From Lachnospiraceae bacterium (GTDB taxonomy: Bacteria; Bacillota; Clostridia; Lachnospirales; Lachnospiraceae): a DNA stretch of 50,932 nt. Position numbers and translations under genes: made by a program. Positions within the stretch are counted from its first letter, which is position 1, and each line of letters starts with the position of its first letter. The stretch spans positions 1 through 50,932 of the forward strand of contig JAFQMS010000029.1 in the NCBI GenBank assembly GCA_017396145.1, read 5' to 3'. Below are positions 10,435 through 34,436 of this stretch, piece after piece. The notes under the pieces were generated by a model. That model saw only the letters and a program-made list of their open reading frames with translations. It was not told the DNA's origin and did no database searches.

Positions 10435-11145
10435 GCCAATGATTTGACCGGTAAGATAAGAGTTTTTATGAGTTAACTGATATACAAGGTCTGCTACTTC
10501 TTCAGGTGAACCAAGCCTTCCGGCAGGGATTTCATCGACTAATGACATAAGTTCGTCATCAGTTAGAAAATGATTCATTTCGGTGTCTATGGCACCACAT
10601 GCAATTGCATTTACTTGAATATTACTTGGAGCCAGTTCTTTTGCCAGCGCCTTGGTAAGGGAATTCATGGCTCCTTTTGTTGCAGAATATGCAACTTCGC
10701 AGGATGCACCGGCAACACCCCATACAGAAGAAATGTTGACAATTTTACCGTATTTGTTAGAAACCATATAAGGAATTCCCAAAGAGGTAATATTGTACAC
10801 TGATGTTAAATTGGTACGAATTATTCTGTCCCAATCTTGTGGTGACATCTCTGAGAATAAACCTATATAGGATATTCCAGCGTTATTAATTATAAGGTCT
10901 GCGCCACCATATGCCTTTTTTATCTGATTAAATAACTCTTTAGCATTGTCGTACACACCTATGTCTCCAAGATAGGCAAGACAGGATGTCTGATAACTTT
11001 CTATTTCTTTTTTTGTGTTAAGCAATTGTTCCTTAGAACCAGAACAGTTAATTACCACATTGTAATTCTTTTTAGCGTATTTTATTGCAATTGCTTTACC
11101 GATTCCTCTTGAAGAACCTGTAACAAGTACTGTTTTTTTGTTCAT
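10414..11145 (-). CDS. SDR-family reductase, probably EF-P 5-aminopentanone reductase (YmfI-like)
   Basis: A 243-residue short-chain dehydrogenase with the NAD(P) motif TGSSRGIG (near residue 8), NNAGIS (near 85) and catalytic Ser-Tyr-Lys in NISSVWG and YSATKG (about residue 152). It ends GQIIGLDGGWI. General annotation would be FabG-like 3-oxoacyl-ACP reductase. The blocks NISSVWGVAGASCEVAYSAT and LAKELAPSNIQVNAIACGAI look closer to YmfI, which reduces 5-aminopentanone on elongation factor P; the absence of fatty-acid genes nearby agrees. The start was moved four codons inward because GGAG overlaps the longer start. Confidence 0.8.
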   Translation of the reverse strand: MNKKTVLVTGSSRGIGKAIAIKYAKKNYNVVINCSGSKEQLLNTKKEIESYQTSCLAYLGDIGVYDNAKELFNQIKKAYGGADLIINNAGISYIGLFSEMSPQDWDRIIRTNLTSVYNITSLGIPYMVSNKYGKIVNISSVWGVAGASCEVAYSATKGAMNSLTKALAKELAPSNIQVNAIACGAIDTEMNHFLTDDELMSLVDEIPAGRLGSPEEVADLVYQLTHKNSYLTGQIIGLDGGWI

Positions 11146-11182
11146 AATAATCTCCATTCCGCAGGCATTTATTTATATTCTT

Positions 11183-21897: not shown

Positions 21898-21926
21898 TTG
21901 AATTGATAACAAAAGTTTGTTAAAAT
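21898..21926 (+). promoter_or_regulatory. Promoter of the malate/fumarate-Hdr operon
   Basis: TTGAAT (21898-21903) and TAAAAT (21921-21926) are separated by 17 bases, 110 bases before the first gene. A Rex half-site sequence TTGTTAA (21917-21923) overlaps the -10 box. Confidence 0.6.
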
Positions 21927-21966
21927 AATGTCATGTGTGTGGGGAAGGTTTCTTTGTTAAAAAACA

Positions 21967-21984
21967 TTGTGAAAAAATTAACAG
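21967..21984 (+). promoter_or_regulatory. Candidate Rex (NADH-sensing repressor) operator
   Basis: TTGTGAAAAAATTAACAG matches the Rex consensus TTGT(G/T)AA-N4-TTAACAA at all but the last base. Two further TTGTTAA half-sites lie at 21917-21923 and 21954-21960. The site lies in the transcribed leader, about 50 bases before the mdh start codon. Rex normally represses fermentation genes when NADH is low relative to NAD+, so it would fit a pathway that disposes of NADH. Confidence 0.55.
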
Positions 21985-22035
21985 AGAATAATTAAACTAA
22001 GATACTATTACTCATGAAATAAGAAAGGAATTGAC

Positions 22036-22980
22036 ATGAATAAGATTACAGTAATTGGTACAGGTAGTGTAGGTTCTACAATAGCTTATACTTTAGCGAT
22101 TGAAGGCCTTGCATCGGAAATTGTTATGATTGATATTAATGGAGACAAAGCATTAGGAGAGGCATTGGATATTCGTCAGGGTACACCATTTGGTCATCCA
22201 TGCACAGTTCAGGCAGGTAATTATGCTGATGCAGCAGGTTCGGATATTGTTGTTATTACATCAGGAATTGCAAGAAAAGAAGGACAATCAAGACTTGATT
22301 TAGCTCAGGTGAATATCAATGTAGTAAAATCTATTACTCCAGAGGTTATTCGTTATGCGCCAGATGCAACTTATGTTATAGTAAGTAACCCGGTTGATGT
22401 ATTGACATATGCATTTTGTAAATACTCAGGACTTCCAGAACAAAGAATAATAGGTTCTGGTACAATATTAGACACTGCTCGTCTTCGTTCTAGAATTTCA
22501 GAGTATTACTCTGTTAATCAGCAAAACGTTCATGCTTATGTATTAGGCGAACATGGAGATTCTTCATTTGTGCCTTGGTCTATCGCTAACATTTCCAATG
22601 TGCCGGTAGAAGATTATAGAAATTCTTTATTAAATACAAGACGAGATTTTCCAGACTTAAATAAGGATGAAGTTGAGGAATATGTTCGTAAGTCAGGAGC
22701 AAAGGTTATACAGAGAAAGGGAGCTACATTTTATGCTGTATCAATGTCGGTATGTCACATCTGCAAATGTTTATTAAGTGGTATTGATACAACATTGACA
22801 GTTTCTACAATGTTACATGGTGAATACGGAATTGATGATATTTGCTTAAGTTTATTAAATGTTGTAGGTAAAGATGGTGCTCATAGTAAAGTAATGCTTC
22901 CTCTCAACGATAGAGAACTTGAGGCATTGAGATATAGTGCGGACAGTCTTAGAAATGTAATTAATAGTGTAAAACTTTAA
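22036..22980 (+). CDS. mdh: Malate dehydrogenase of the lactate dehydrogenase-like family
   Basis: A 314-residue NAD-dependent 2-hydroxyacid dehydrogenase. The Rossmann motif is VIGTGSVGSTIAYTLA (near 5), the catalytic His lies in LGEHGDSSFVPWS (His about 173), and the substrate loop is GIARKEGQSRLDL. The residue that discriminates substrates (102 in LDH numbering) is Arg80 here, the malate/oxaloacetate type; lactate dehydrogenases have Gln. Substrate-binding Arg109 corresponds to Arg86. By overall similarity it would be labelled L-lactate dehydrogenase, but the Arg and the fumarase downstream point to oxaloacetate reduction. It is the first gene of the operon. GAAAGGAA precedes the ATG. Confidence 0.78.
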   Translation: MNKITVIGTGSVGSTIAYTLAIEGLASEIVMIDINGDKALGEALDIRQGTPFGHPCTVQAGNYADAAGSDIVVITSGIARKEGQSRLDLAQVNINVVKSITPEVIRYAPDATYVIVSNPVDVLTYAFCKYSGLPEQRIIGSGTILDTARLRSRISEYYSVNQQNVHAYVLGEHGDSSFVPWSIANISNVPVEDYRNSLLNTRRDFPDLNKDEVEEYVRKSGAKVIQRKGATFYAVSMSVCHICKCLLSGIDTTLTVSTMLHGEYGIDDICLSLLNVVGKDGAHSKVMLPLNDRELEALRYSADSLRNVINSVKL

Positions 22981-23079
22981 GTTACACTATAGATATGTTT
23001 GCAAAGCAGTTAAAAAGCGTTTGTAAAACATTCATATTAAAAATGAATATTAATTTGATAATAGAAAGGACATAAAAAT

Positions 23080-24456
23080 ATGGAATATCGTATTGAACAT
23101 GATTCTATGGGTGAGGTTAAGGTGCCAGCTGATGTATACTGGGCTGCACAGACACAGAGAAGCCATGAGAATTTTGAAATAGGTGTAGGTATAGAAACTA
23201 TGCCAAAGGAAATAATCCATGCGTTTGGTGTTTTAAAGAAGGCTGCTGCCATTGCTAACAATGGTCTTAAGCCGGAAAAGATGACAGATGAAAAACTTAG
23301 TGCAATTAAAAAAGCATGTGATGAAGTAATGTCAGGAGTACTCAATACTCATTTTCCACTTGTTGTATGGCAGACAGGTTCAGGCACACAGTCTAATATG
23401 AATGCTAACGAAGTTATTGCTAATCGCGGTAATGAGATACTTGGACAGAAACTTCTGCATCCAAATGATGATGTTAATATGAGTCAGTCATCTAATGATA
23501 CCTTCCCAACAGCAATGCATATTGCTGCTGTTATAGCATTGGAGAATAAGTTAATTCCAGCAGCTAAAGAACTCATTGAAACATTTAAGCGTTTAGAGAC
23601 CGAGAATGAAGGAATTGTAAAGAGTGGTAGAACCCACCTTCAGGATGCAACACCTATTACATTTACTCAGGAGATAAGCGGATGGCGTTCAAGTCTTGAA
23701 AAGGATGTTGAATTATTAAACCGTGCAGTAGAGCCTCTTTATGAATTGGCTCTAGGTGGAACTGCGGTAGGAACAGGACTTAATGCTCCTGCAGGATTTG
23801 CAGAGAATGTTGCAAAGGAAATTGCCAACATTACAGGCAAGCCATTTGTTACAGCAGTTAACAAGTTCCACTCACTTACTTCTAAGGATGAATTAGTATT
23901 TGCTCACGGAGCAATCAAGGCTTTAGCTTGCGATATGATGAAGATTGCTAACGATATTCGTTGGCTTGCAAGCGGACCAAGAGATGGTCTTGGAGAAATC
24001 TTCATTCCAGAGAATGAGCCTGGTTCATCAATTATGCCAGGTAAAGTTAACCCAACACAGTGCGAGGCAGTTACAATGGTGGCTGTTCAGGTAATGGGTA
24101 ATGATGTAGCAGTAGGAATGGCTGCATCGCAGGGTAACTTTGAACTTAATGTATTTATGCCAGTTACAATATATAACTTCCTTCAGTCAGCAAGACTTCT
24201 TGCTGAAGCAATAGTTTCATTTAATAAGAACTGTGCAGTAGGAATTAAGGCTAATAAGGAAAAGATGCATCACAATCTTCACAACTCACTTATGCTTGTC
24301 ACAGCACTTAATCCATACATTGGATATGAGAACGCTGCAAAGACAGCTAAGAAAGCATTTAAGGATAATATTTCTTTAAAAGAAGCTTGTGTGGAACTTG
24401 GATTCCTTACAGCAGAGAGATTTGACGAAGTATTCCATCCAGAAGAGATGGTTTAA
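23080..24456 (+). CDS. fumC: Class II fumarate hydratase
   Basis: A 458-residue fumarase C, interconverting malate and fumarate without an Fe-S cluster. Signatures are [16 protein letters not shown] (near 100), [14 protein letters not shown] (near 131), [12 protein letters not shown] (near 186) and the superfamily motif [11 protein letters not shown] (near 318). Length is normal. AGAAAGGA precedes the ATG. It follows mdh by 99 bases and precedes the Hdr genes by 51 bases, in the order of the reductive branch of the citric acid cycle, so it probably feeds fumarate to the reductase encoded at the end of the operon. Confidence 0.95.
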
Positions 24457-24507
24457 ATAAGATGATTATCATCAATAAAATTTGCTTAGGCATGAAAGGA
24501 TAAAACT

Positions 24508-25293
24508 ATGAAAGCAAGTTATTTTCCAGGATGTACCCTGAAAAATAAGGCAACCCACCTTGATATTTATGCAAGAAAATGTGCCGATGTTTTAGGTGTT
24601 ACATTAGAAGAAATTGAAGAGTGGCAGTGCTGTGGTGGTGTGTTTACAACATCTAAGGACGAAGTAGCTACAAAGCTTTCTTCAGTGCGTGCCCTCAAGG
24701 AAGCAAAGGCAAAGAATCAGCCTTTGATAACTGTGTGTTCAGCTTGTCATAACGTGATTAAACAGACTAATCATGCAATGGAAGATACACAGTTTGCAGA
24801 CAAGGTTAACAGATATATGGGAGAGGATGCATATGATGGAAGTGCAACAGTATATCACTATCTTGAAATGCTTCGTGACCTTGTAGGATTTGACAAGATT
24901 AAAGAGAAAGTGGTTAATCCACTTACAGGCAAGAAAATCGGTGCTTACTATGGTTGTCTGTTACTTAGACCTAATAAGGTTATGCAGATGGATGACCCTG
25001 AGAATCCACAGATTATGGAAGATTTTATCCGCGCTATTGGTGCAGAGCCTGTAGTGTATGCATATCGTAATGAATGTTGCGGCGGATATATTGCAATGGA
25101 AGACCCTCAGTCAGCAAAGAAAAAGAGTAACAGAGTAACTGAGTGCGCACAGATTGCGGGAGCAGAAATGATAGTTACTGCCTGTCCACTTTGCAAATAC
25201 AATTTAGTTAAGAACGGCTCTGAACTTCCAGTGATTTATTTCACAGAATTGTTAGCCGAGGCTCTTGGAGTAAAGGAGGTTTCTAATGAATAA
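24508..25293 (+). CDS. hdrB: HdrB-like subunit with two CCG domains
   Basis: A 261-residue HdrB family protein. Both CCG motifs are complete: Cys9, Cys41-Cys42, Cys77 and Cys80, then Cys150, Cys190-Cys191, Cys226 and Cys229. In methanogen HdrB these motifs ligate the unusual non-cubane [4Fe-4S] clusters where disulfide is reduced. Here they could reduce a thiol/disulfide carrier or pass electrons to the fumarate reductase subunits. It overlaps hdrC by 8 bases, after GGAGG in its own 3' end. Related CCG domains also form the C-terminal half of methanogen thiol:fumarate reductase TfrB. Confidence 0.9.
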   Translation: MKASYFPGCTLKNKATHLDIYARKCADVLGVTLEEIEEWQCCGGVFTTSKDEVATKLSSVRALKEAKAKNQPLITVCSACHNVIKQTNHAMEDTQFADKVNRYMGEDAYDGSATVYHYLEMLRDLVGFDKIKEKVVNPLTGKKIGAYYGCLLLRPNKVMQMDDPENPQIMEDFIRAIGAEPVVYAYRNECCGGYIAMEDPQSAKKKSNRVTECAQIAGAEMIVTACPLCKYNLVKNGSELPVIYFTELLAEALGVKEVSNE

Positions 25294-25678
25294 TAAGATG
25301 CAAAACCTTCGTGATGAGATAATCTTAAGAAGTGGTGTTAATCCATCAAAATGTATGGCATGTGGTAAGTGTTCAGCAACTTGTCCTGCATATAACGAGA
25401 TGGAATACCATCCACATCAGTTTGTAAGTATGGTAAAGAGCGGAGATATTGAGCCATTACTGGCTTCTGATTCTCTATATAAATGTCTTACTTGCTTTGC
25501 TTGTGTTGACAGATGCCCAAGAGGCGTTGAACCTGCAAAGTTAGTTGAAGCAGTAAGACTTGCAGCAATTAGACAGCAAGGAGCCAATCATCTTAAACCT
25601 GATATGGTTCCAGATATGTTAGACGACGATATGCCACAGCAGGCAATTGTAAGTGCATTTAGAAAATATACTAAGTAA
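25286..25678 (+). CDS. hdrC: HdrC-like ferredoxin subunit
   Basis: A 130-residue HdrC with two [4Fe-4S] motifs, CMACGKCSATCP (near residue 18) and CLTCFACVDRCP (near 66), separated by HdrC-type text (FVSMVKSGD, LYKCLTC). It should carry electrons between HdrA and HdrB in the cytosol. It is shorter than many methanogen HdrC proteins but typical for bacterial Hdr clusters. The ribosome binding site GGAGG lies within hdrB; hdrA follows after 15 bases. Confidence 0.9.
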   Translation: MNNKMQNLRDEIILRSGVNPSKCMACGKCSATCPAYNEMEYHPHQFVSMVKSGDIEPLLASDSLYKCLTCFACVDRCPRGVEPAKLVEAVRLAAIRQQGANHLKPDMVPDMLDDDMPQQAIVSAFRKYTK

Positions 25679-25693
25679 GGAGGAAAAGACAAA

Positions 25694-27688
25694 GTGCAAA
25701 GAATTGGTGTTTTTGTATGTTGGTGTGGAAGTAACATCGCAGCTACAGTAGATGTACAGGCTGTTGCCCAGGCACTTAAAAATGAGCCGGGTGTAGTCTT
25801 TTCCACTGACTATCAATACATGTGTTCCCAAGCGGGACAGGATATGATTAAAGAAGCAGTTGCAGAGCATAATTTAACAGGAATCGTAGTATGTTCTTGT
25901 TCACCACGTATGCATGAGGCTACATTCCGTAAGACAGCAGCTGCAGCGGGACTTAACCCATATATGGTAGAGATTGCAAACATTCGTGAGCAGTGTTCAT
26001 GGGTTCATAAGGATATCCCAACAGGTACAGAGAAAGCAATTATTCTTGGAAAGGCAGCGGTTGCAAAGGTTAATTTGAATACTCCATTAACTCCAGGAGA
26101 GTCGCCAGTAACAAAGAGAGCTTTAGTTATCGGTGGTGGTATCGCAGGTATTCAGACAGCGCTTGATATTGCAGATGCAGGTTTCCCTGTAGATATAGTT
26201 GAAACAAAACCAACAATTGGTGGTAAGATGGCACAACTTGATAAGACATTCCCTACTCTTGACTGTGCGGCTTGTATTCTTACTCCTAAGATGGTTGACG
26301 TTGCCCAGAATGATAAGATTCGTATTTTCTCATACAGTGAGGTTGAGGAAGTATCAGGCTTCGTAGGTAATTTTGATGTAAAGATTAAGAAGAGAGCCCG
26401 TTACGTAAAAGAAGATTTATGTACAGGCTGTGGAGCCTGCGTTGAAAAATGTCCAATGAAGAAGGTTCCTAACGAATTTAATCTTGGCATGGACAACAGA
26501 CCAGCAATTTATATTCCATTTGCACAGGCAGTGCCAAAGGTGGCAACAATAGACCCTAATGCATGTAATATGCTTAAGAATGGTAAATGTGGTCTTTGCG
26601 CAAGAGTATGTACTGCAGGTGCAATTGATTATACTCAGAAAGATGAAATAATCGAAGAGAAGTATGGTGCAATTGTTGTTGCAACAGGCTTTAATCCAAT
26701 TAGTATGGATAAGTTTGATGAGTTTGCTTACAGTCAGTCGAAAGATGTTATTACTTCATTAGAATTCGAACGTCTTACTAATGCAGCAGGCCCTACAGCA
26801 GGTAAGCTTGTAAGACCTTCTGACGGAGAGCATCCACATACAATAGTGTTCGTACAGTGTGTTGGTTCGCGTTGTGAGAACTGTGCAGAAAAAGGTAAAG
26901 AGTACTGTTCAAAGATTTGTTGTATGTATACTGCAAAGCATGCAATGTTAGTTAGAGATAAATATCCGGATATAGAGACTTATGTATTCTATATTGATGT
27001 TCGTACACCAGGTAAAAATTTCGACGAGTTCTACCGTAGAGCAGTTGAAGAATATGGTGTTAAGTATGTTAAGGGTATGGTTGGTAAGGTGTCTCCTGAA
27101 GGAAAGAAACTTAAAGTTCAGGCATCAGACTTACTTAATAACAAACAACTTAATATAGATGCTGACCTTGTAGTTTTAGCAGCAGCTATTGAGCCTGATA
27201 AATCAGCTCGTCCACTTGCTACAATGCTTACAGCAAGTATGGATACTAATGATTTCTTTACAGAAGCGCATCCAAAGCTTCGTCCTGTAGAAAGTCCAAC
27301 AGCAGGTGTATTCTTATCAGGTGCATGTCAGGGACCTAAGGATATTCCAGAGACCGTATCTCAGGCAGGTGCTGCAGCATCTAAGGTTATAGGACTTCTT
27401 GCTAAGGATAAACTTACAGGTAATCCATGTATTGCAAGTTCTGATGAGAATATGTGTAACGGATGTTCTTCTTGTGAAAGAGTATGTCCATACGGAGCAA
27501 TTACTTATGTAGACAAGGAATTCCGTATGCCAGACAGAACTACTAAGGTTCGTAGAGTGGCACAGGTTAATCCTGCAGTATGTCAGGGTTGTGGTGCTTG
27601 TACAGTTGCTTGTCCATCAGGTGCTATGGACCTTCGTGGATTTGCAAGCAATCAAATAATTGCGGAGGTGGATGCAATATGCAAATAA
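25694..27688 (+). CDS. hdrA: HdrA-like flavin-bifurcating subunit
   Basis: A 664-residue HdrA. An N-terminal domain with Cys clusters (CWCGS, VCSCSPRMHEATFR) is followed by an FAD-binding GGGIAGIQTALD (near 146), the HdrA-specific TLDCAACILTPKM (near 189), an inserted ferredoxin domain (CTGCGACVEKCP near 243; CGLCARVC near 300) and a C-terminal ferredoxin domain (CNGCSSCERVCP near 586; CQGCGACTVACP near 630). In known Hdr complexes this FAD splits electron pairs between a high- and a low-potential path. It starts at GTG, preceded by AAGGAGG at correct distance. The 3' end overlaps flxD by 10 bases. Confidence 0.93.
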   Translation: MQRIGVFVCWCGSNIAATVDVQAVAQALKNEPGVVFSTDYQYMCSQAGQDMIKEAVAEHNLTGIVVCSCSPRMHEATFRKTAAAAGLNPYMVEIANIREQCSWVHKDIPTGTEKAIILGKAAVAKVNLNTPLTPGESPVTKRALVIGGGIAGIQTALDIADAGFPVDIVETKPTIGGKMAQLDKTFPTLDCAACILTPKMVDVAQNDKIRIFSYSEVEEVSGFVGNFDVKIKKRARYVKEDLCTGCGACVEKCPMKKVPNEFNLGMDNRPAIYIPFAQAVPKVATIDPNACNMLKNGKCGLCARVCTAGAIDYTQKDEIIEEKYGAIVVATGFNPISMDKFDEFAYSQSKDVITSLEFERLTNAAGPTAGKLVRPSDGEHPHTIVFVQCVGSRCENCAEKGKEYCSKICCMYTAKHAMLVRDKYPDIETYVFYIDVRTPGKNFDEFYRRAVEEYGVKYVKGMVGKVSPEGKKLKVQASDLLNNKQLNIDADLVVLAAAIEPDKSARPLATMLTASMDTNDFFTEAHPKLRPVESPTAGVFLSGACQGPKDIPETVSQAGAAASKVIGLLAKDKLTGNPCIASSDENMCNGCSSCERVCPYGAITYVDKEFRMPDRTTKVRRVAQVNPAVCQGCGACTVACPSGAMDLRGFASNQIIAEVDAICK

Positions 27689-28113
27689 AAGAATATAAGC
27701 CTTTAATAGTAGCATTTTGCTGTAACTGGTGTTCATATGCCGGTGCAGACCTTGCAGGTAATAATAGACTTAATTATCCGGCTGAAGTAAAGATTATCCG
27801 TGTCCCATGTTCTTGTAGAGTTAATCCAATGTTTATACTCCGTGCTTTCCAGCGTGGAGCAGATGGTGTAATAATCTGCGGATGTCATCCGGGAGACTGT
27901 CACTATACTTCAGGTAATTACTATACACGCCGTAGAATGGCACTTCTGTTCTCAATGCTTGATTTCTTAGGAATCGAGAGAGAACGTACTCGTGTAGAAT
28001 GGGTATCAGCAGCAGAAGGTGCTAAGTTTGCAACTACAATGAATGATTTCGTGGAAAAGGTTGCATCCCTTGGTGAGAATAAGAGATTGGAGGATCTGCG
28101 ATGCAAAAGATAA
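27679..28113 (+). CDS. flxD: FlxD / MvhD-like [2Fe-2S] subunit
   Basis: A 144-residue protein of the MvhD/FrhD family (delta subunit of methyl-viologen-reducing hydrogenase), known as FlxD in bacterial Hdr-Flx complexes. Cys motifs are FCCNWCSYAG (near 13), PCSCRVNP and CGCHPGDCHY (near 62). It links the electron donor module to HdrA. A longer frame starts ~100 bases earlier inside hdrA but has no ribosome binding site; the ATG after GCGGAGG, overlapping the hdrA end, is chosen. No hydrogenase subunits are present, so the donor is not H2. Confidence 0.9.
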   Translation: MQIKEYKPLIVAFCCNWCSYAGADLAGNNRLNYPAEVKIIRVPCSCRVNPMFILRAFQRGADGVIICGCHPGDCHYTSGNYYTRRRMALLFSMLDFLGIERERTRVEWVSAAEGAKFATTMNDFVEKVASLGENKRLEDLRCKR

Positions 28114-29099
28114 CTTTAGAAAGTTTAGTTGAAAAAGCAGTTTCTCTGCTTGAAAATGGTACAGTAACATCTGTACTTGGATGGAAAAAGGGCGAGTTTG
28201 ACTATGATATCACTCCTGCAGTTTTTGAAAGTGCAGATGAACTCAAAAAAGATTTTGTATGGAATGATTTTTGTGGAGCAAACTTCTCAAAATATCTCGT
28301 GTCAAAGACTTGTAAAAGCGAAGGAAAGATACTTGTTTTCTTAAAGCCTTGTGATACCTACAGCTTTAATCAACTTCTTACTGAGCATAGATTTGACAGA
28401 GAAAAGGTATATGCAGTTGGTATTCCATGTGAAGGAATGGCTGATATAAATAAGGTTAAGGAAGTTGTGGGAGACGGTATTTCAAAGATTGAAAGCAACG
28501 GAGACGACCTTGTTGTTACAACAATCTATGAGGACGCGCCTGTAAAGGTTACTTGCAAGGATGTTCTTGCAGAGCGTTGTGTGAATTGTAAGAGTAAAAG
28601 ACATGTAGCATATGATGAACTTCTTGGAGAAGAAGGAGAAGTTATTGCAAGCGAGCGTTTTGATGAAGTTGAAAGACTTGAGAAAATGACTCCGGAGGAA
28701 AGATTTGCTTTCTGGCAGAATGAACTTTCAAAGTGTATTCGTTGTAATGCCTGCCGTGATGTATGTCCTGCATGTACTTGTGAAAAGTGCGTGTTTGACA
28801 ATCCAAATTCAGGAGTAGAAAACAAAGCAGCATCTAACAGCTTTGAAGAGAAGATGTTCCATATCATTCGTGCCTTCCATGTGGCAGGACGTTGTACAGA
28901 CTGTGGAGAGTGCTCAAGAGTATGTCCACAAAACATTCCACTTCATTTGCTTAATCGTAAGTTTATTAAGGATATTAATGAATTCTATGGTGAATATCAG
29001 GCGGGTGCTGAGGTTGGTCTTAGAGCACCACTTGTAGATTATACTTTAGAAGATTTAGAGCCTGGTGAAGTATTTGACAGGAGGGATAACAATGCGTAA
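28101..29099 (+). CDS. flxC: FlxC-like iron-sulfur protein
   Basis: A 332-residue 4Fe-4S protein resembling FlxC of bacterial Hdr-Flx complexes and, more distantly, beta-type subunits related to F420 hydrogenase and sulfite reductase A. Cys motifs include ERCVNCKSKRHVAY (near 152), CIRCNACRDVCPACTCEKC (near 213) and CTDCGECSRVCPQNIP (near 263). It overlaps flxD by 13 bases and flxB by 8. Family knowledge places it as an electron relay between the NAD(P)H module FlxA and HdrA. Assignment to C rather than B is by order and length. Confidence 0.8.
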   Translation: MQKITLESLVEKAVSLLENGTVTSVLGWKKGEFDYDITPAVFESADELKKDFVWNDFCGANFSKYLVSKTCKSEGKILVFLKPCDTYSFNQLLTEHRFDREKVYAVGIPCEGMADINKVKEVVGDGISKIESNGDDLVVTTIYEDAPVKVTCKDVLAERCVNCKSKRHVAYDELLGEEGEVIASERFDEVERLEKMTPEERFAFWQNELSKCIRCNACRDVCPACTCEKCVFDNPNSGVENKAASNSFEEKMFHIIRAFHVAGRCTDCGECSRVCPQNIPLHLLNRKFIKDINEFYGEYQAGAEVGLRAPLVDYTLEDLEPGEVFDRRDNNA

Positions 29100-30117
29100 A
29101 TGTTTAGTTGAAGATATTAATAGTGTATTAGCACAGATTAACAAAGCAGCAAAGGTTTATCTTCCTGTTGACGGAACAGATGGAAAGGCTCGTTTTGAAG
29201 AGTGGGCAGAGGGGAAAGAATGGAGTAATGCCCTTAATACAGAAAGAAGTGCTAAAGACTTTTTCTTCCCACAGACAGAAAACCTTATGGAGTTTAAGAC
29301 TGAGGGAAAGAATATTGAGATTATAGATATCAGAAGCGATAAAGATGATTTTGTTATCTTTGGCGTTCGTGGATGTGATGTAAGAAGTTTCGATATTTTA
29401 GACAGAGTATTCTTAGTGGAGCCAATAGACAGTTTCTATAAGGCACGCAGAGAGCATGGAATAATTATCTCTGTTGCATGTGGAAGACCTTCAGAGACTT
29501 GCTTTTGTGGAGCATTTGGTATAGATGCATCTAATCCGGCAGGAGATGTTACTGTATGGAGAACTAAAGAGGCTGTATACTGGCAAAGCAACACTGATAA
29601 GGGTGAAGAACTTCTTAAAAAGGTTGAAGGTCTTACAGATTGCGACGAAGCAGCAGTGGAAGAGGAAAAGGCTAAGATTAAAAAGATTATGGATAAGTTG
29701 CCTTTGGCTAACTTATCAACTGAAGACTTTGGCGCAGGAAAGACTATGGAATTATTTGATTCAGATAAATGGAAGGATTTATCCGAAAGTTGTCTTGGAT
29801 GCGGAACATGTACTTTCGTGTGTCCAACATGTCAGTGCTATGACATAAAGGAATTTAACGCAGGTAAGGGCGTAGTAAGATTCCGTTGCTGGGATTCATG
29901 TATGTATTCTGATTTTACTCAGATGTCAGCAGGCCAGCCGCGTTTATCTCAGCTTGAACGCTTCCGTCAAAGATTTATGCACAAACTTGTGTACTATCCT
30001 GAAAGAAACGATGGAATATATGGATGCGTAGGATGTGGAAGATGTCTTGCTAAATGTCCGATATCTATGAATATCGTTAAAGTAATGAAGTCACTAGGAG
30101 GTAAGGATAATGAGTAA
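29092..30117 (+). CDS. flxB: FlxB-like iron-sulfur protein (AsrA family)
   Basis: A 341-residue protein of the anaerobic sulfite reductase A (AsrA)/FlxB family: GVRGCDVRSFDILD (near 98), CFCGAFG, and two cluster motifs CLGCGTCTFVCPTC (near 240) and CVGCGRCLAKCP (near 316). It probably moves electrons from FlxA toward FlxC/FlxD. The start was moved nine codons inward, after GGAGGG. It overlaps flxC by 8 bases and flxA by 8 bases. No sulfite reductase catalytic subunit (AsrC) is nearby, which argues against a sulfite reductase. Confidence 0.85.
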   Translation: MRKCLVEDINSVLAQINKAAKVYLPVDGTDGKARFEEWAEGKEWSNALNTERSAKDFFFPQTENLMEFKTEGKNIEIIDIRSDKDDFVIFGVRGCDVRSFDILDRVFLVEPIDSFYKARREHGIIISVACGRPSETCFCGAFGIDASNPAGDVTVWRTKEAVYWQSNTDKGEELLKKVEGLTDCDEAAVEEEKAKIKKIMDKLPLANLSTEDFGAGKTMELFDSDKWKDLSESCLGCGTCTFVCPTCQCYDIKEFNAGKGVVRFRCWDSCMYSDFTQMSAGQPRLSQLERFRQRFMHKLVYYPERNDGIYGCVGCGRCLAKCPISMNIVKVMKSLGGKDNE

Positions 30118-30943
30118 TGTATCAGAAACTTTAATCCCTAAGATAGGCGTGATTACAGATGTTCGTATTGACACACCTGATATAAAGACTTTCAGAGTGG
30201 TAACACCTGATGGTGTGAAGCCATTTGACCATAGACCGGGACAGTGTGCAATGCTTTCTGTACCTGGTGTAGGTGAGGCTATGTTCTCAATTACATCATC
30301 ACCTACCAATACAGAATTTATGGAATTTTCCATTAAGAAATGTGGTTGCGTTACAGATTGGCTTCATCAGGCAGAGGTTGGTCAGCAGATAACAATTCGT
30401 GGACCATATGGAACTCCATTCCCTGTTGACGATGAATTTGCAGGAAAGAACCTTTTATTCATCGCAGGTGGTGTTGGTCTTGCTCCACTTCGTTCAGTAA
30501 TTAACTATTGCCGTCACTACAGCGACCGCTATGGCAAGATTGACATTGTATACGGTTCTCGTAGTAAAAACGATTTACTAGATTATAAAGAGATTGTAGA
30601 TGAATGGACTAAAGACGCTAATGTAGATGTTCATCTTACAATAGATAATCCACAGGAAGGCTGGGATGGTCATGTTGGATTTGTTCCTAACTATGTTAAG
30701 GAACTTGGATTTGACACAGATAAGACTGTAATCCTTTGCGGACCACCAATTATGATTAAGTTCACACTTGATGGTTTATGCGACCTTGGATTTGAAAAAT
30801 CACAGATTTATACAACTCTTGAGATGCGTATGAAATGTGGAGTTGGTAAATGTGGAAGATGTAATGTTGGTTCAAAATATATTTGTAAAGATGGTCCGGT
30901 ATTCCGCTTTGATGAGCTTGATGAGTTGCCGGATGAGTACTAG
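30110..30943 (+). CDS. flxA: FlxA-like FAD/NAD(P)H-oxidising subunit (AsrB/PyrK family)
   Basis: A 277-residue ferredoxin reductase-type flavoprotein. FAD-binding residues are near 45-75 (HRPGQCAMLSVPG). The NAD(P)-binding domain has FIAGGVGLAPLRSVIN (near 117) and CGPPIMIKFTL (near 210). A C-terminal [2Fe-2S] site is CGVGKCGRCNVGSKYIC (near 243), as in AsrB and dihydroorotate dehydrogenase electron-transfer subunit PyrK. This is the expected entry point for NADH (or NADPH). The flxB stop overlaps its start. It ends 42 bases before the FrdB-like gene. Confidence 0.88.
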   Translation: MSNVSETLIPKIGVITDVRIDTPDIKTFRVVTPDGVKPFDHRPGQCAMLSVPGVGEAMFSITSSPTNTEFMEFSIKKCGCVTDWLHQAEVGQQITIRGPYGTPFPVDDEFAGKNLLFIAGGVGLAPLRSVINYCRHYSDRYGKIDIVYGSRSKNDLLDYKEIVDEWTKDANVDVHLTIDNPQEGWDGHVGFVPNYVKELGFDTDKTVILCGPPIMIKFTLDGLCDLGFEKSQIYTTLEMRMKCGVGKCGRCNVGSKYICKDGPVFRFDELDELPDEY

Positions 30944-30985
30944 GAATAATTCCTAAAGCAAATAGTTTCGAAATGGAGGAACACT

Positions 30986-31660
30986 ATGAGTAATATGGTT
31001 AACATTTTCCTTTTTGGAAAGAAATATGAGGTACCAGAGAATCTTACTATTATGAGCGCAATGGAATATGCTGGTTATCAGCTTGTTAGAGGTTGCGGAT
31101 GCCGTAATGGTTTCTGTGGTGCCTGTGCAACAATCTATCGTATTAAAGGTGATAGAGAATTAAAGGCATGTCTTGCTTGCCAGACAAAGGTTGAAGATAA
31201 TATGTACATCGCTACATTACCATTCTTCCCACTTGTTAAACAGGTTTATGATATGGAGAAAATTAAACCTACAGAGGCTGTTATGATGCAGCTTTACCCT
31301 GAGATTTATGCTTGTATCGGATGTAATGCTTGTACTAAGGCATGTACTCAGGAACTTAATGTAATGCAGTATATTGCATATGCACAGCGTGGTGATTTTG
31401 AGAAATGTGCAGAAGAGTCATTTGACTGTGTAATGTGTGGCGTATGTTCATCTCGTTGTCCTGCAGGAATCTCTCATCCACAGGTTGCTATGCTTGCTCG
31501 TAGAATTAACGGTAAGTATCTTGCTCCAGGATGTGGTCACTTAGAAGACCGTGTTCAGGAAATTAAAGACGGAACATTTAATGACTTAATTGAAGCATTA
31601 ATGCAAAAGCCAGTAGAAGAAATCAAAGAACTTTATAATAACCGTGAAATCGAGAAATAA
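30986..31660 (+). CDS. Fumarate reductase-type iron-sulfur subunit (FrdB/TfrB N-terminal-like)
   Basis: A 224-residue Fe-S protein. A plant-type [2Fe-2S] domain holds CRNGFCGAC (near 38) and a later CLACQ. It is followed by two cubane motifs CIGCNACTKAC (near 111) and CVMCGVCSSRCP (near 150). The layout is that of succinate dehydrogenase/fumarate reductase subunit B, with standard CxxCxxC motifs in both cubane sites. In methanogen TfrB a similar module is fused to a CCG domain; here the CCG protein (HdrB) is separate. It should hand electrons to the flavoprotein downstream. The start is after TGGAGGAAC. Confidence 0.82.
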   Translation: MSNMVNIFLFGKKYEVPENLTIMSAMEYAGYQLVRGCGCRNGFCGACATIYRIKGDRELKACLACQTKVEDNMYIATLPFFPLVKQVYDMEKIKPTEAVMMQLYPEIYACIGCNACTKACTQELNVMQYIAYAQRGDFEKCAEESFDCVMCGVCSSRCPAGISHPQVAMLARRINGKYLAPGCGHLEDRVQEIKDGTFNDLIEALMQKPVEEIKELYNNREIEK

Positions 31661-31672
31661 GGAAAGGAGACA

Positions 31673-31807
31673 GTGTGAAAAATCACATTGATATGATGAT
31701 TTTTCACACACCTATTTGTGACGCAGGCATCACAAATAGGATTTATCGCAGAGCTGAATCTGAAATTCAGCTCGCGATTCCTTCGGCAAAAAAATTGCCT
31801 GCGGAAT
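31673..31807 (+). other. Four consecutive hairpins between the FrdB-like and FrdA-like genes
   Basis: Stem 1 is 13 bp perfect (31673-31685 with 31697-31709). Stem 2 is 11 bp perfect (31711-31721 with 31730-31740). Stem 3 is 9 bp perfect (31751-31759 with 31765-31773), extendable by 3 bp past a bulge. Stem 4 is two 5-bp helices around a 3x3 internal loop (31777-31807). Stem 4 ends directly against the GGAG of the next gene (31808-31811). None is followed by a T-run, so they are not ordinary terminators. They may control mRNA stability, processing or translation. Confidence 0.75.
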
Positions 31808-31817
31808 GGAGATTAGT

Positions 31818-33422
31818 ATGTATTCAGAGGAATTTAAAGCATCCCTTGCAGCAGTAGAAGCAGCAAGAGATAACAACATAGCTCTTGAGCCTGCCCGTAT
31901 GACTGCACAGCAGAAAGAGGATTTATTAGCAGCATATCATCCAGACTATAAGAAGGATGAGTTTGCTGAACTTAAAATAGGACCTAACAAAGGTGAAAAG
32001 GTGCCTACAGAGTTAGCACAGACTTTACAGGCTCACAGCCGTATTTCATCAGATAGCGTGGATTTAGAGAATCCAGATTATGATGTTGATGTACTTATTA
32101 TCGGTGGTGGCGGTGCCGGTACTTCAGCAGCTATCGAAGCTCACGAGGCAGGAGCTAATGTAATGATAGTTACAAAACTTCGTGTTGGTGATGCTAACAC
32201 AATGATGGCTGAGGGTGGAATTCAGGCAGCAGATAAGCCTAATGATTCACCAGCAATTCACTTCGTAGATGCATTTGGTGGCGGACATTTCGCAGCTAAG
32301 AGAGAGTTACTTTCTAAGCTTGTGTGTGATGCTCCAGAGGCAATCCAGTGGTTAAGTAATTTAGGTGTTGAATTTGATAAAGAAGAAGACGGAACAATGG
32401 TTACTACTCATGGTGGTGGTACATCTCGTAAGCGTATGCATGCAGCTAAGGACTATTCTGGTGCAGAAATCATGAGAACTCTTCGTGATGAGGTTATGAA
32501 CCGCCAGATTCCAATCGTTGACTTTACTTCAGCAATTGAATTAATTCTTGATGAAAATGGTAACGCAGCAGGTGCTGTTCTTATGAACATGGAGACTAAG
32601 GATTTACTTGTTGCGAAAGCTAAGACTGTAATTATTGCAACAGGTGGTGCAGGTAGAATGCATTATCAGGGCTTCCCAACTTCTAACCACTATGGTGCAA
32701 CAGCAGATGGTCTTGTACTTGGTTACAGAGCAGGTGCTAAGCTTCTTTATGCTGAGACTTTACAGTACCATCCAACAGGTGCTGCATACCCAGAGCAGAT
32801 TTTCGGTGCATTAGTTACTGAGAAGGTTCGTTCACTTGGTGCAAAGTTAGTTAACTCAAAGGGTGAAGTATTCATGCATCCACTTGAGACTCGTGATGTT
32901 GCAGCAGCTTCTATCATCAGAGAGTGCAGCACAAGAGAGAACGGTGTAGACACTGGCAATGGTCAGGGTGTATGGCTTGATACTCCAATGATTGAAAAGA
33001 TTGGTGGAGAAGGAACTATCGAAAAACGTATCCCAGCTATGATGCGTATGTTCGCTAAATACGGAATCGATATCCGTAAAGAGCCTATCTTAGTATACCC
33101 AACACTTCATTACCAGAATGGTGGTCTTGATATTACACCAGACGGAATGACAACTAATGTGAAGAACCTCTTCGTAGCCGGTGAGGCAGTTGGAGGAATT
33201 CATGGTAGAAACCGTCTTATGGGTAACTCATTACTTGACATCATTGTATTTGGTCGTGGTGCAGGTATCAGCGCAGCTGCAGCAGCTAAGGAAGCTAATG
33301 TAGGTAAGCTTACATTAAAGCATGTTGATGCATTTGAGGCTGAAATTAAGGCAGCAGGTATTGAGACTGAGGAAGTATCTCCAAAGTTATTACCTAACTA
33401 TACAAAGCAGAAGAATATATAA
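31818..33422 (+). CDS. frdA: Soluble fumarate reductase flavoprotein (FrdA-like)
   Basis: A 534-residue FAD protein of the fumarate reductase/succinate dehydrogenase A family. A ~90-residue N-terminal extension precedes the FAD motif IIGGGGAGTSAAIEA (near 95). Catalytic residues of the family are present: His318 (QYHPTG), Arg359 (ETRDVAAA), His431 (HYQNGG) and Arg466 (RLMGNS). The His that binds FAD covalently in FrdA/SdhA is replaced by Asn127 (ANTMMAEGG), so FAD should be non-covalent. The C-terminal helical domain of FrdA is largely missing. No membrane anchor gene follows. An upstream in-frame ATG overlaps the GGAG; the later ATG is chosen. Confidence 0.85.
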   Translation: MYSEEFKASLAAVEAARDNNIALEPARMTAQQKEDLLAAYHPDYKKDEFAELKIGPNKGEKVPTELAQTLQAHSRISSDSVDLENPDYDVDVLIIGGGGAGTSAAIEAHEAGANVMIVTKLRVGDANTMMAEGGIQAADKPNDSPAIHFVDAFGGGHFAAKRELLSKLVCDAPEAIQWLSNLGVEFDKEEDGTMVTTHGGGTSRKRMHAAKDYSGAEIMRTLRDEVMNRQIPIVDFTSAIELILDENGNAAGAVLMNMETKDLLVAKAKTVIIATGGAGRMHYQGFPTSNHYGATADGLVLGYRAGAKLLYAETLQYHPTGAAYPEQIFGALVTEKVRSLGAKLVNSKGEVFMHPLETRDVAAASIIRECSTRENGVDTGNGQGVWLDTPMIEKIGGEGTIEKRIPAMMRMFAKYGIDIRKEPILVYPTLHYQNGGLDITPDGMTTNVKNLFVAGEAVGGIHGRNRLMGNSLLDIIVFGRGAGISAAAAAKEANVGKLTLKHVDAFEAEIKAAGIETEEVSPKLLPNYTKQKNI

Positions 33423-33446
33423 AATTCAAGTATCAAAACATTCATT

Positions 33447-33485
33447 GCCCACATATGCTTGCATATGTGGGCATATGACTTTTTG
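33447..33485 (+). terminator. Terminator of the Hdr-Flx-Frd operon
   Basis: A perfect 12-bp inverted repeat GCCCACATATGC / GCATATGTGGGC (33447-33458 and 33461-33472) with a 2-base loop is followed 7 bases later by a T-run, 25 bases after the frdA stop. Confidence 0.75.
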
Positions 33486-34052: not shown

Positions 34053-34436
34053 TTAAACATTTAACTTATTTATCAGGGCTTCTTCTAATAAGCGAGAAAA
34101 ATTAATGTTTTCTGCTTCTGCTTTCTCATTAAGCCAGCTTGGTATGGTGAGTGTTTTCTTTATTCTTTTAGTTGCTAATTTCTTGCGGTATTCATTAAAA
34201 TCAACATCCACATAAGTTAGAATATCGCCGGATTGCATTTCAAAAGAAGTACTGTCTGGCTCTGGAATATCCTTTCCCATATCATGTAGAGACATTCCCA
34301 TAGCACCTATAACATCTCGTGCCATATATAGAGCATCAGCAATGTCTTTGCCTTGGGTATTGCAGTTGAAGTCTGGAACAGAAACAAAGTAGCCGTATGC
34401 GTCAGGTGTTAGTATTATTTTATATGCTTTTCTCAT
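34053..34436 (-). CDS. hicB: HicB-family antitoxin
   Basis: A 127-residue HicB. The N-terminal HicB-type fold reads YKIILTPDAYGYFVSVPDFN and TQGKDIADALYMARDVIGAM. A C-terminal DNA-binding part (TIPSWLNEKAEAENINFSRLLEEAL) looks like a ribbon-helix-helix/Arc type. It neutralises HicA and likely represses the operon. The start after GGAGG was chosen; a longer frame runs back through hicA without a ribosome binding site. It follows hicA after 13 bases. Confidence 0.9.
   Translation of the reverse strand: MRKAYKIILTPDAYGYFVSVPDFNCNTQGKDIADALYMARDVIGAMGMSLHDMGKDIPEPDSTSFEMQSGDILTYVDVDFNEYRKKLATKRIKKTLTIPSWLNEKAEAENINFSRLLEEALINKLNV

Follow-up and report, generated by a model that had tools for sequence, protein, structure and literature searches.

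An mdh-fumC-hdr-flx-frd operon of a Lachnospiraceae bacterium as a candidate soluble, electron-bifurcating NADH:fumarate reductase

INTRODUCTION

Certain gut Clostridia produce large amounts of succinate, and to our knowledge it is unsettled how quinone-free fermenters gain energy from the reduction of fumarate. Crotonyl-CoA, caffeyl-CoA and heterodisulfide are acceptors that drive ferredoxin reduction. For Blautia luti, an NADH-dependent fumarate reductase has only been assumed, and methyl viologen served to measure the activity (PMC12773636). A 2020 paper on Pseudoclostridium thermosuccinogenes (PMC7282089), citing a 2019 preprint by Koendjbiharie and van Kranenburg, describes the same type of operon as the one considered below and the same idea, namely that fumarate reduction is coupled to ferredoxin. 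That operon was upregulated ∼4-fold at low CO2, although not significantly for all of its subunits. Direct electron shuttling to fumarate reductase has also been suggested for gene clusters of tubeworm symbionts and Thioflavicoccus (PMC6315080, PMC11636981). Among the titles and beginnings of abstracts listed by searches of open-licence PMC papers, none reported a bifurcating fumarate reductase that had been shown biochemically.

Here, we analyze a window of 50,932 nucleotides from a Lachnospiraceae bacterium (GenBank contig JAFQMS010000029.1, positions 1 to 50,932; contig C17 of a 1.38-Mb genome that is 58.5% complete). It carries an operon with genes for malate and fumarate metabolism, heterodisulfide reductase (hdr), flx and fumarate reductase (frd) subunits. 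The operon is widespread, is tightly conserved among close relatives and most likely spreads between bacteria in one piece. Based on its sequence, we consider it probable, at approximately 0.66, that the operon encodes a soluble, quinone-independent NADH:fumarate reductase in which HdrA splits electrons between ferredoxin and, via FrdBA, fumarate.

RESULTS

Gene content and conservation of the operon

Open reading frames (ORFs) and profile matches define eleven genes, all on the plus strand, between positions 22036 and 33422. The features are as follows:

22036 to 22980, plus strand: mdh, lactate dehydrogenase (LDH)-like putative malate dehydrogenase; Ldh_1_N and Ldh_1_C matches, Arg80
23080 to 24456, plus strand: fumC, class II fumarase; TIGR00979 at 714.9 bits, above the cut-off
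24508 to 25293, plus strand: hdrB, with two CCG cysteine-rich motifs; PF02754 over two stretches
25286 to 25678, plus strand: hdrC, with two 4Fe-4S motifs; TIGR03290 at E 1.4e-17, below the cut-off
25694 to 27688, plus strand: hdrA, GTG start, presumed FAD-containing bifurcating subunit; matches 5odc_A
27679 to 28113, plus strand: flxD, MvhD/FlpD-like subunit; PF02662 at E 9e-56
28101 to 29099, plus strand: flxC, 4Fe-4S subunit, named by Fer4 dicluster matches and position
29092 to 30117, plus strand: flxB, sulfhydrogenase-beta-like 4Fe-4S subunit; PF17179 at E 4.6e-30, NF040829 at E 5e-50 (below the cut-off)
30110 to 30943, plus strand: flxA, FAD- and NAD(P)H-binding electron entry subunit; PF00175, PF00970 and PF10418
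30986 to 31660, plus strand: frdB-like gene, subunit with one 2Fe-2S and two 4Fe-4S clusters; Fer2 and Fer4 domains
31672 to 31822, plus strand: hairpin leader element of four hairpins, ending in a Shine-Dalgarno sequence and the frdA start codon
31818 to 33422, plus strand: frdA-like gene, flavoprotein of the non-covalent-FAD type with an N-terminal extension of ∼85 residues; FAD_binding_2
33446 to 33473, plus strand: terminator-like hairpin of 12 pairs, 6 of them G-C

The ORF list and the profile searches agree on the genes, order and single strand that the original prediction, made from the sequence alone, had given. The genes are tightly packed, with intergenic gaps in gene order of 99, 51, -8, 15, -10, -13, -8, -8, 42 and 145 nt. 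The last gap becomes 157 nt if frdA starts at 31818, a start that is preceded by GGAG and agrees with that of its relatives; the listed ORF opens at 31806. No membrane anchor gene of the usual size follows frdA, the next ORF of at least 90 amino acids starting at 34053 on the opposite strand, which fits the predicted lack of an anchor subunit. The claim of one promoter and one strong terminator fared less well: the terminator-like hairpin is present with only a short, offset T run, and the promoter-like site at 21898 is weak evidence because such sites are no commoner in the scanned region (32) than in shuffled sequences (36.5, standard deviation 5.5).

Among 61 related genomes, the genome of the window included, frdA was found in 9 (E 1e-60) and hdrA in 10 (E 1e-40), including all 9 with frdA (hypergeometric p ∼6e-10, not corrected for relatedness). 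In each of the nine, frdA adjoins hdrA. The tenth hdrA genome has an Hdr-Flx cluster with 31 to 56% identity to the window subunits and no frd within the 19 kb read. A wider scan, taking one genome per species, yielded at least 560 confirmed FrdA relatives, of which the best 80 loci were examined; the sample is hence biased to close relatives. Of these 80, 59 have at least 7.3 kb upstream of frdA and 21 are too short to judge. In 58 of the 59, the complete set of eight genes (hdrBCA-flxDCBA-frdB) lies upstream of frdA, and the same holds for 8/8 loci of the related genomes, so that the gene set is not a product of chance. With at least 9.6 kb upstream (57 of the best 80 loci), fumC was present in 49 cases and mdh in 41. 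Gut samples from ruminants, horse or chicken are mentioned in many of the record titles, and the title for L092 refers to a Ruminococcus flavefaciens assembly.

Residues of the Hdr-Flx and Frd subunits

Several residues in FrdA, FrdB, HdrB, HdrA and Mdh could have broken the idea of coupling, and none did. Before counting, aligned rows that covered less than 85% of the window protein or lacked a stop codon were removed. Because some genes were fetched twice, the rows include duplicates; distinct rows number 126 of 135 for FrdA (judged by the last 200 residues), 121 of 131 for FrdB, 74 of 76 for HdrA and 77 of 78 for HdrB.

All seven subunits of an FlxABCD-HdrABC complex are encoded together. 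HdrA matches the solved HdrA 5odc_A over nearly its full length (686 bits) and has the FAD domain; its E359 and K415 align to E356 and K409 of 5odc_A, with positions counted by hand, and are kept in 76/76 rows. This Glu/Lys pair is a proposed mark of bifurcating HdrA (PMC12054007). HdrC retains 8 Cys in 76/76 rows, the five solved chains matched by HdrB are all HdrB, and the solved chain nearest to FlxA is sulfhydrogenase 1 gamma. The conserved HdrA pair argues against a soluble NADH:fumarate reductase without bifurcation, in which electrons would pass straight to fumarate or ferredoxin and NADH would both be consumed (confurcation). Electron transfer from NADH to fumarate is strongly exergonic on its own, and bifurcation is not demonstrable from gene content alone, but simple electron transfer would not require a full HdrA with its entire set of cluster motifs, and we regard this alternative as unlikely.

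Quinone-linked enzymes carry a 3Fe-4S site at the position of the second 4Fe-4S cluster of FrdB. Here, both 4Fe-4S Cys sets are complete in 131/131 rows, and the second has all four Cys. The AlphaFold2 (AF2) model of FrdB has a predicted local distance difference test score (pLDDT) of 87.7 and a predicted template modeling score (pTM) of 0.66; a fold search returned partial matches to Fe-S proteins, with template modeling scores to the query of at most 0.31 among the 50 matches listed. In FrdA, aligned to complex II flavoproteins including E. coli SdhA, H322, E339, R363, H435 and R470 occur in 135/135 rows and T338 in 134/135. We take these six to be the substrate-site residues, and the protein thus has the His, Thr, Glu, Arg, His and Arg of the FrdA/SdhA superfamily. 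Its AF2 model (mean pLDDT of 88.8) retrieves E. coli FrdA (1kf6) as the first Foldseek match. The N-terminal extension is confidently folded in this model; neither Pfam (up to E 0.01) nor the PDB (up to E 1) contained a match to it.

At the position of the flavin-linking His, FrdA has Asn, both in the window and in 134/135 rows. E. coli FrdA without the covalent flavin link loses succinate oxidation and keeps fumarate reduction, so that the Asn suggests that fumarate reduction is favored over succinate oxidation. This bears on whether the complex could run in reverse, spending reduced ferredoxin to oxidize succinate. Hdr complexes are reversible in principle, but given the Asn we consider this direction highly improbable.

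Proposed mechanism and energetics

The operon would hold the reductive branch from oxaloacetate to succinate in one unit. Malate dehydrogenase and fumarase would supply fumarate. NADH, rather than NADPH, would be oxidized at FlxA of a soluble complex, and electrons would pass through FlxB and FlxC to FlxD and on to the HdrA FAD. Bifurcation there would send one branch to ferredoxin and the other through HdrC and HdrB directly to FrdB and to the FrdA FAD, where fumarate would be reduced to succinate. The overall reaction, 2 NADH + fumarate + oxidized ferredoxin → 2 NAD+ + succinate + reduced ferredoxin, has a calculated yield of -33 to -53 kJ/mol for ferredoxin potentials of -500 to -400 mV, with the NAD and fumarate potentials taken from PMC5861303.

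The reduced ferredoxin could be spent by Rnf or a hydrogenase. The genome encodes RnfD, found by profile, and five further rnf genes on contig C30, identified by eye, in what reads as rnfCDGEAB. Co-occurrence with rnf had been proposed as a check of the coupling. The cluster is indeed present, but because RnfD occurs in 50/61 related genomes, its co-occurrence is uninformative. We also considered Ech or complex I as the ferredoxin outlet and set it aside, as no match to the 49-kDa subunit was found in the nine operon-bearing genomes of the 61.

Phosphoenolpyruvate carboxykinase was sought through PF01293, the GTP-type enzyme falling outside this search. Nine of the 14 operon genomes gave a match, partial in three (G000, G001 and G014); that in the incomplete window genome is weak and lies at a contig end. 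A menaquinone link was sought through MenD only, and not through the futalosine route. MenD scored over the cut-off in the window genome and in G001 (2/14 genomes), which at first suggested a quinone; the window genome's copy, the one inspected, lies in a glycan cluster, and the match was therefore not counted. The former MenD-like protein (L169; contig C29, 72000 to 90000) sits in what appears by eye to be a surface-glycan cluster, with glycosyltransferases and an ABC-2 exporter.

Evidence weighing against coupled fumarate reduction

Several observations count against the bifurcating NADH:fumarate reductase, and we gather them here. First, HdrB keeps both CCG motifs, with the ten motif Cys present in 77 to 78 of 78 rows, as expected of an enzyme that still reduces a disulfide. 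A dithiol carrier could then link Hdr-Flx and FrdBA: HdrB would reduce the disulfide of a DsrC-like protein or a small thiol, and the thiol would reduce fumarate, through FrdBA directly or together with HdrB as in thiol:fumarate reductase (TfrAB). TfrA is indeed the best NCBIfam model for FrdA (347 bits, below its cut-off of 718). However, TfrB carries its own C-terminal CCG domain, and profile searches found none in FrdB; the TfrB model scores 40.1 bits against a cut-off of 385, and its C terminus matches HdrB. In Desulfovibrio, Hdr-Flx is proposed to use DsrC as its acceptor (PMC10920352), but the operon studied here, to which the search for a dithiol protein was confined (the genome was not searched for DsrC), has no further ORF of at least 90 amino acids that could encode one. 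A dithiol link therefore appears quite unlikely to us.

Second, the HdrA Glu/Lys pair is also found at L141, an Hdr-Flx locus without frd nearby, and thus marks HdrA rather than fumarate coupling. In addition, one operon-bearing relative (G008, 96% complete) gave neither an RnfD match nor one to the complex I/Ech 49-kDa subunit.

Third, the product of the first gene, predicted to be a malate dehydrogenase, passes the NCBI model for L-lactate dehydrogenase (TIGR01771, 333.9 bits; cut-off, 303.55). We nevertheless set lactate dehydrogenase aside because of the classical specificity position: Arg80, at LDH position 102, is kept in 45/45 operon homologues, whereas four distant paralogues in operon-bearing genomes (G001, G043, G457 and G462) have Gln. 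A further paralogue with 52% identity (G463, contig C6) also has Arg. The enzyme thus looks like a malate dehydrogenase by its residue, if not by its profile, and the Arg supports malate and hence a fumarate-making pathway.

Fourth, the full gene set, so consistent in near relatives, was rare in a phylum sample. In a phylum-wide draw, FrdA matches were found in 42/398 genomes (own included), 39 of them above 700 bits, and 19 loci from 18 of these 42 genomes were picked by hand, the weakest first and then a spread, not at random. Only one of the 19 (L146) has the full set, and 12 have no hdr genes (one of them, L143, with only 3.2 kb upstream). Neighbors at hdr-less loci include b561-type cytochromes with PrpF and MmgE/PrpD (L142), a NapC/NirT-like cytochrome (L153), a two-subunit fumarase with malic enzyme (L156) and pyruvate carboxylase (L152). 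Genes of the MmgE/PrpD, PrpF or AtuA families stand beside FrdA relatives at L149 and L142. In some Bacillota, members of this flavoprotein family may thus act on unsaturated di- or tricarboxylates other than fumarate, so that fumarate may not be the substrate in every case.

Where FrdBA lacks the full neighbor set (14 genomes), an HdrA match lies elsewhere in 11, and none was found at E 1e-40 in the other three (G439, G127 and G464). Both G439 and G127 are 99% complete, indicating that FrdBA does not need Hdr everywhere. Likewise, the 10 kb upstream of frdBA at L047 are free of Hdr-Flx, and the 1.2-Mb genome of this locus, whose completeness is not stated, gave no HdrA match. FrdBA and Hdr-Flx might accordingly be independent enzymes that share an operon, FrdBA taking electrons from ferredoxin, flavodoxin or another donor, as its occurrence without HdrA and beside cytochromes or fumarase and malic enzyme would allow. 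Against this stand the near-absolute linkage of frd to Hdr-Flx among relatives, the transfer of the genes as one block (see below) and loci L154 and L159, where hdrBC alone adjoins frdBA, which suggests that HdrBC is the direct partner of FrdBA. We thus find independent enzymes very unlikely. At two other loci of the 19, L151 and L157 (L154 and L159 also belong to this sample), hdrBCA-flxD lies on the other side of frd.

Two more of the 19, L150 and L160, combine hdrBCA and flxD with weak matches to FlxC and with HdrA-like proteins of unusual size. The latter (L150, 7622 to 12091, 1,489 amino acids; L160, 7532 to 10744, 1,070 amino acids) contain several FAD/NAD-type and 4Fe-4S domains and are encoded between hdrBC and frdBA; they are possible alternative electron inputs. 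FrdBA thus looks like a module with several donors, Hdr-Flx being that donor in the lineages around the window. On balance, gene content, the missing anchor, rnf, conservation and residues all fit the predicted bifurcating NADH:fumarate reductase, although we infer the coupling itself and FrdBA also occurs without an HdrA match.

Horizontal transfer of the operon

The UvrA protein of this contig shares 82% identity with that of a same-genus genome and 61 to 65% with those of six genomes that carry near operons; for a seventh, G458, the match was only partial. All nine hdr-flx-frd proteins show the opposite pattern, with 49 to 79% identity to the same-genus operon (L016) and 65 to 94% to L019, L024 and L027. 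The window mdh and fumC are also closer to L019, L024 and L027 than to L011 and L017, and the same-genus operon has neither gene in 12 kb upstream. In a concatenated tree of five proteins (window and 35 loci), the window falls in a group of 17 rows made up solely of loci between L019 and L055. A tree grouping it with seven loci of its relatives was rejected by the approximately unbiased (AU) test (p 0.0001); the tested group was picked after the identities were known, and the tree was built by a quick method without a mixture model. Since UvrA and hdr-flx-frd identities run in opposite directions and the tree test agrees, the operon most likely reached this genome by horizontal transfer in one block, as would be expected for genes with a joint function. 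In the same tree, the copy at L085, a record titled Treponema, is nested among Clostridia copies; this reflects either a cross-phylum transfer or a mis-binned contig.

A repeated leader element between frdB and frdA

The ∼150-nt element that separates frdB from frdA folds with a z score of -7.4 (31655 to 31835); in 130 rows from elsewhere, the two genes are no more than 60 nt apart. The element repeats in the genome (G000) on contigs C47, C33, C5 (two copies), C9, C52 and C46 (loci L162 to L167 and L171). All eight copies read, the window's and these seven (L167 and L171 being weak matches), end in a Shine-Dalgarno sequence and a start codon, and they precede unrelated genes, e.g., gatB or genes for a YhaM-like exonuclease and an Xre-type regulator. 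Two-sided changes occur in 6/50 pairs among five copies. The window copy scores 169.7 bits with a model (R1) of which it is itself part, and five copies searched against Rfam gave no match at E up to 1. The element looks like a portable structured leader with its own ribosome-binding site. On the minus strand of the window (11143 to 11174), the last ∼30 nt of the element with the Shine-Dalgarno sequence, lacking the hairpins, precede a gene that by eye encodes a short-chain dehydrogenase.

DISCUSSION

If the proposed coupling is true, quinone-free fermenters conserve the energy of fumarate reduction as reduced ferredoxin, fumarate joins the acceptors that drive ferredoxin reduction, and the yields of succinate-forming gut and industrial bacteria need recalculation. 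We lean, somewhat beyond even odds, towards a broader picture drawn from these loci, in which a reductive C4 branch with a soluble bifurcating fumarate reductase would move among gut Clostridia as a block and FrdBA would act as a plug-in acceptor module for full Hdr-Flx, HdrBC alone, enlarged HdrA-like proteins or membrane cytochromes. The frequency and conservation of the operon should suffice to settle the question with a strain in culture.

Comparison with known systems

The window FrdA shares its fold and active site with the quinol:fumarate reductase FrdABCD and complex II, but the operon lacks an anchor gene, the covalent-FAD His and the 3Fe-4S motif of FrdB. TfrAB, the best NCBIfam match of FrdA, differs in that the CCG function would here sit in a separate HdrB, and the curated TfrA and TfrB cut-offs are not reached. 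Desulfovibrio FlxABCD-HdrABC has the same seven subunits and is proposed to pass NADH electrons both to ferredoxin and to DsrC as the second acceptor (PMC10920352), whereas fumarate reductase is separate there and oxidizes menaquinol (PMC4215793). The reductive tricarboxylic acid cycle clusters of tubeworm symbionts and Thioflavicoccus have flxABCD-hdrABC interspersed with tfrAB (PMC6315080, PMC11636981); they belong to gammaproteobacterial CO2 fixation with korABCD, and the likeness to their TfrAB is drawn from name and description.

The P. thermosuccinogenes "succinate operon" has the same order of functions: fumarase (RS03365), Flx-Hdr (RS03360-30, seven genes if the tags run in fives) and fumarate reductase (RS03325-20). 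By locus tags and description rather than sequence, fumC, hdr-flx and frd thus share one operon in both organisms. The published operon list for P. thermosuccinogenes lacks mdh and closes with a hypothetical gene, possibly for a transporter, whereas the window operon begins with mdh and has no such gene. Both the arrangement and the coupling hypothesis are already in print, and the window operon, for which the reading given here is likely right in outline, adds a member to that proposed system.

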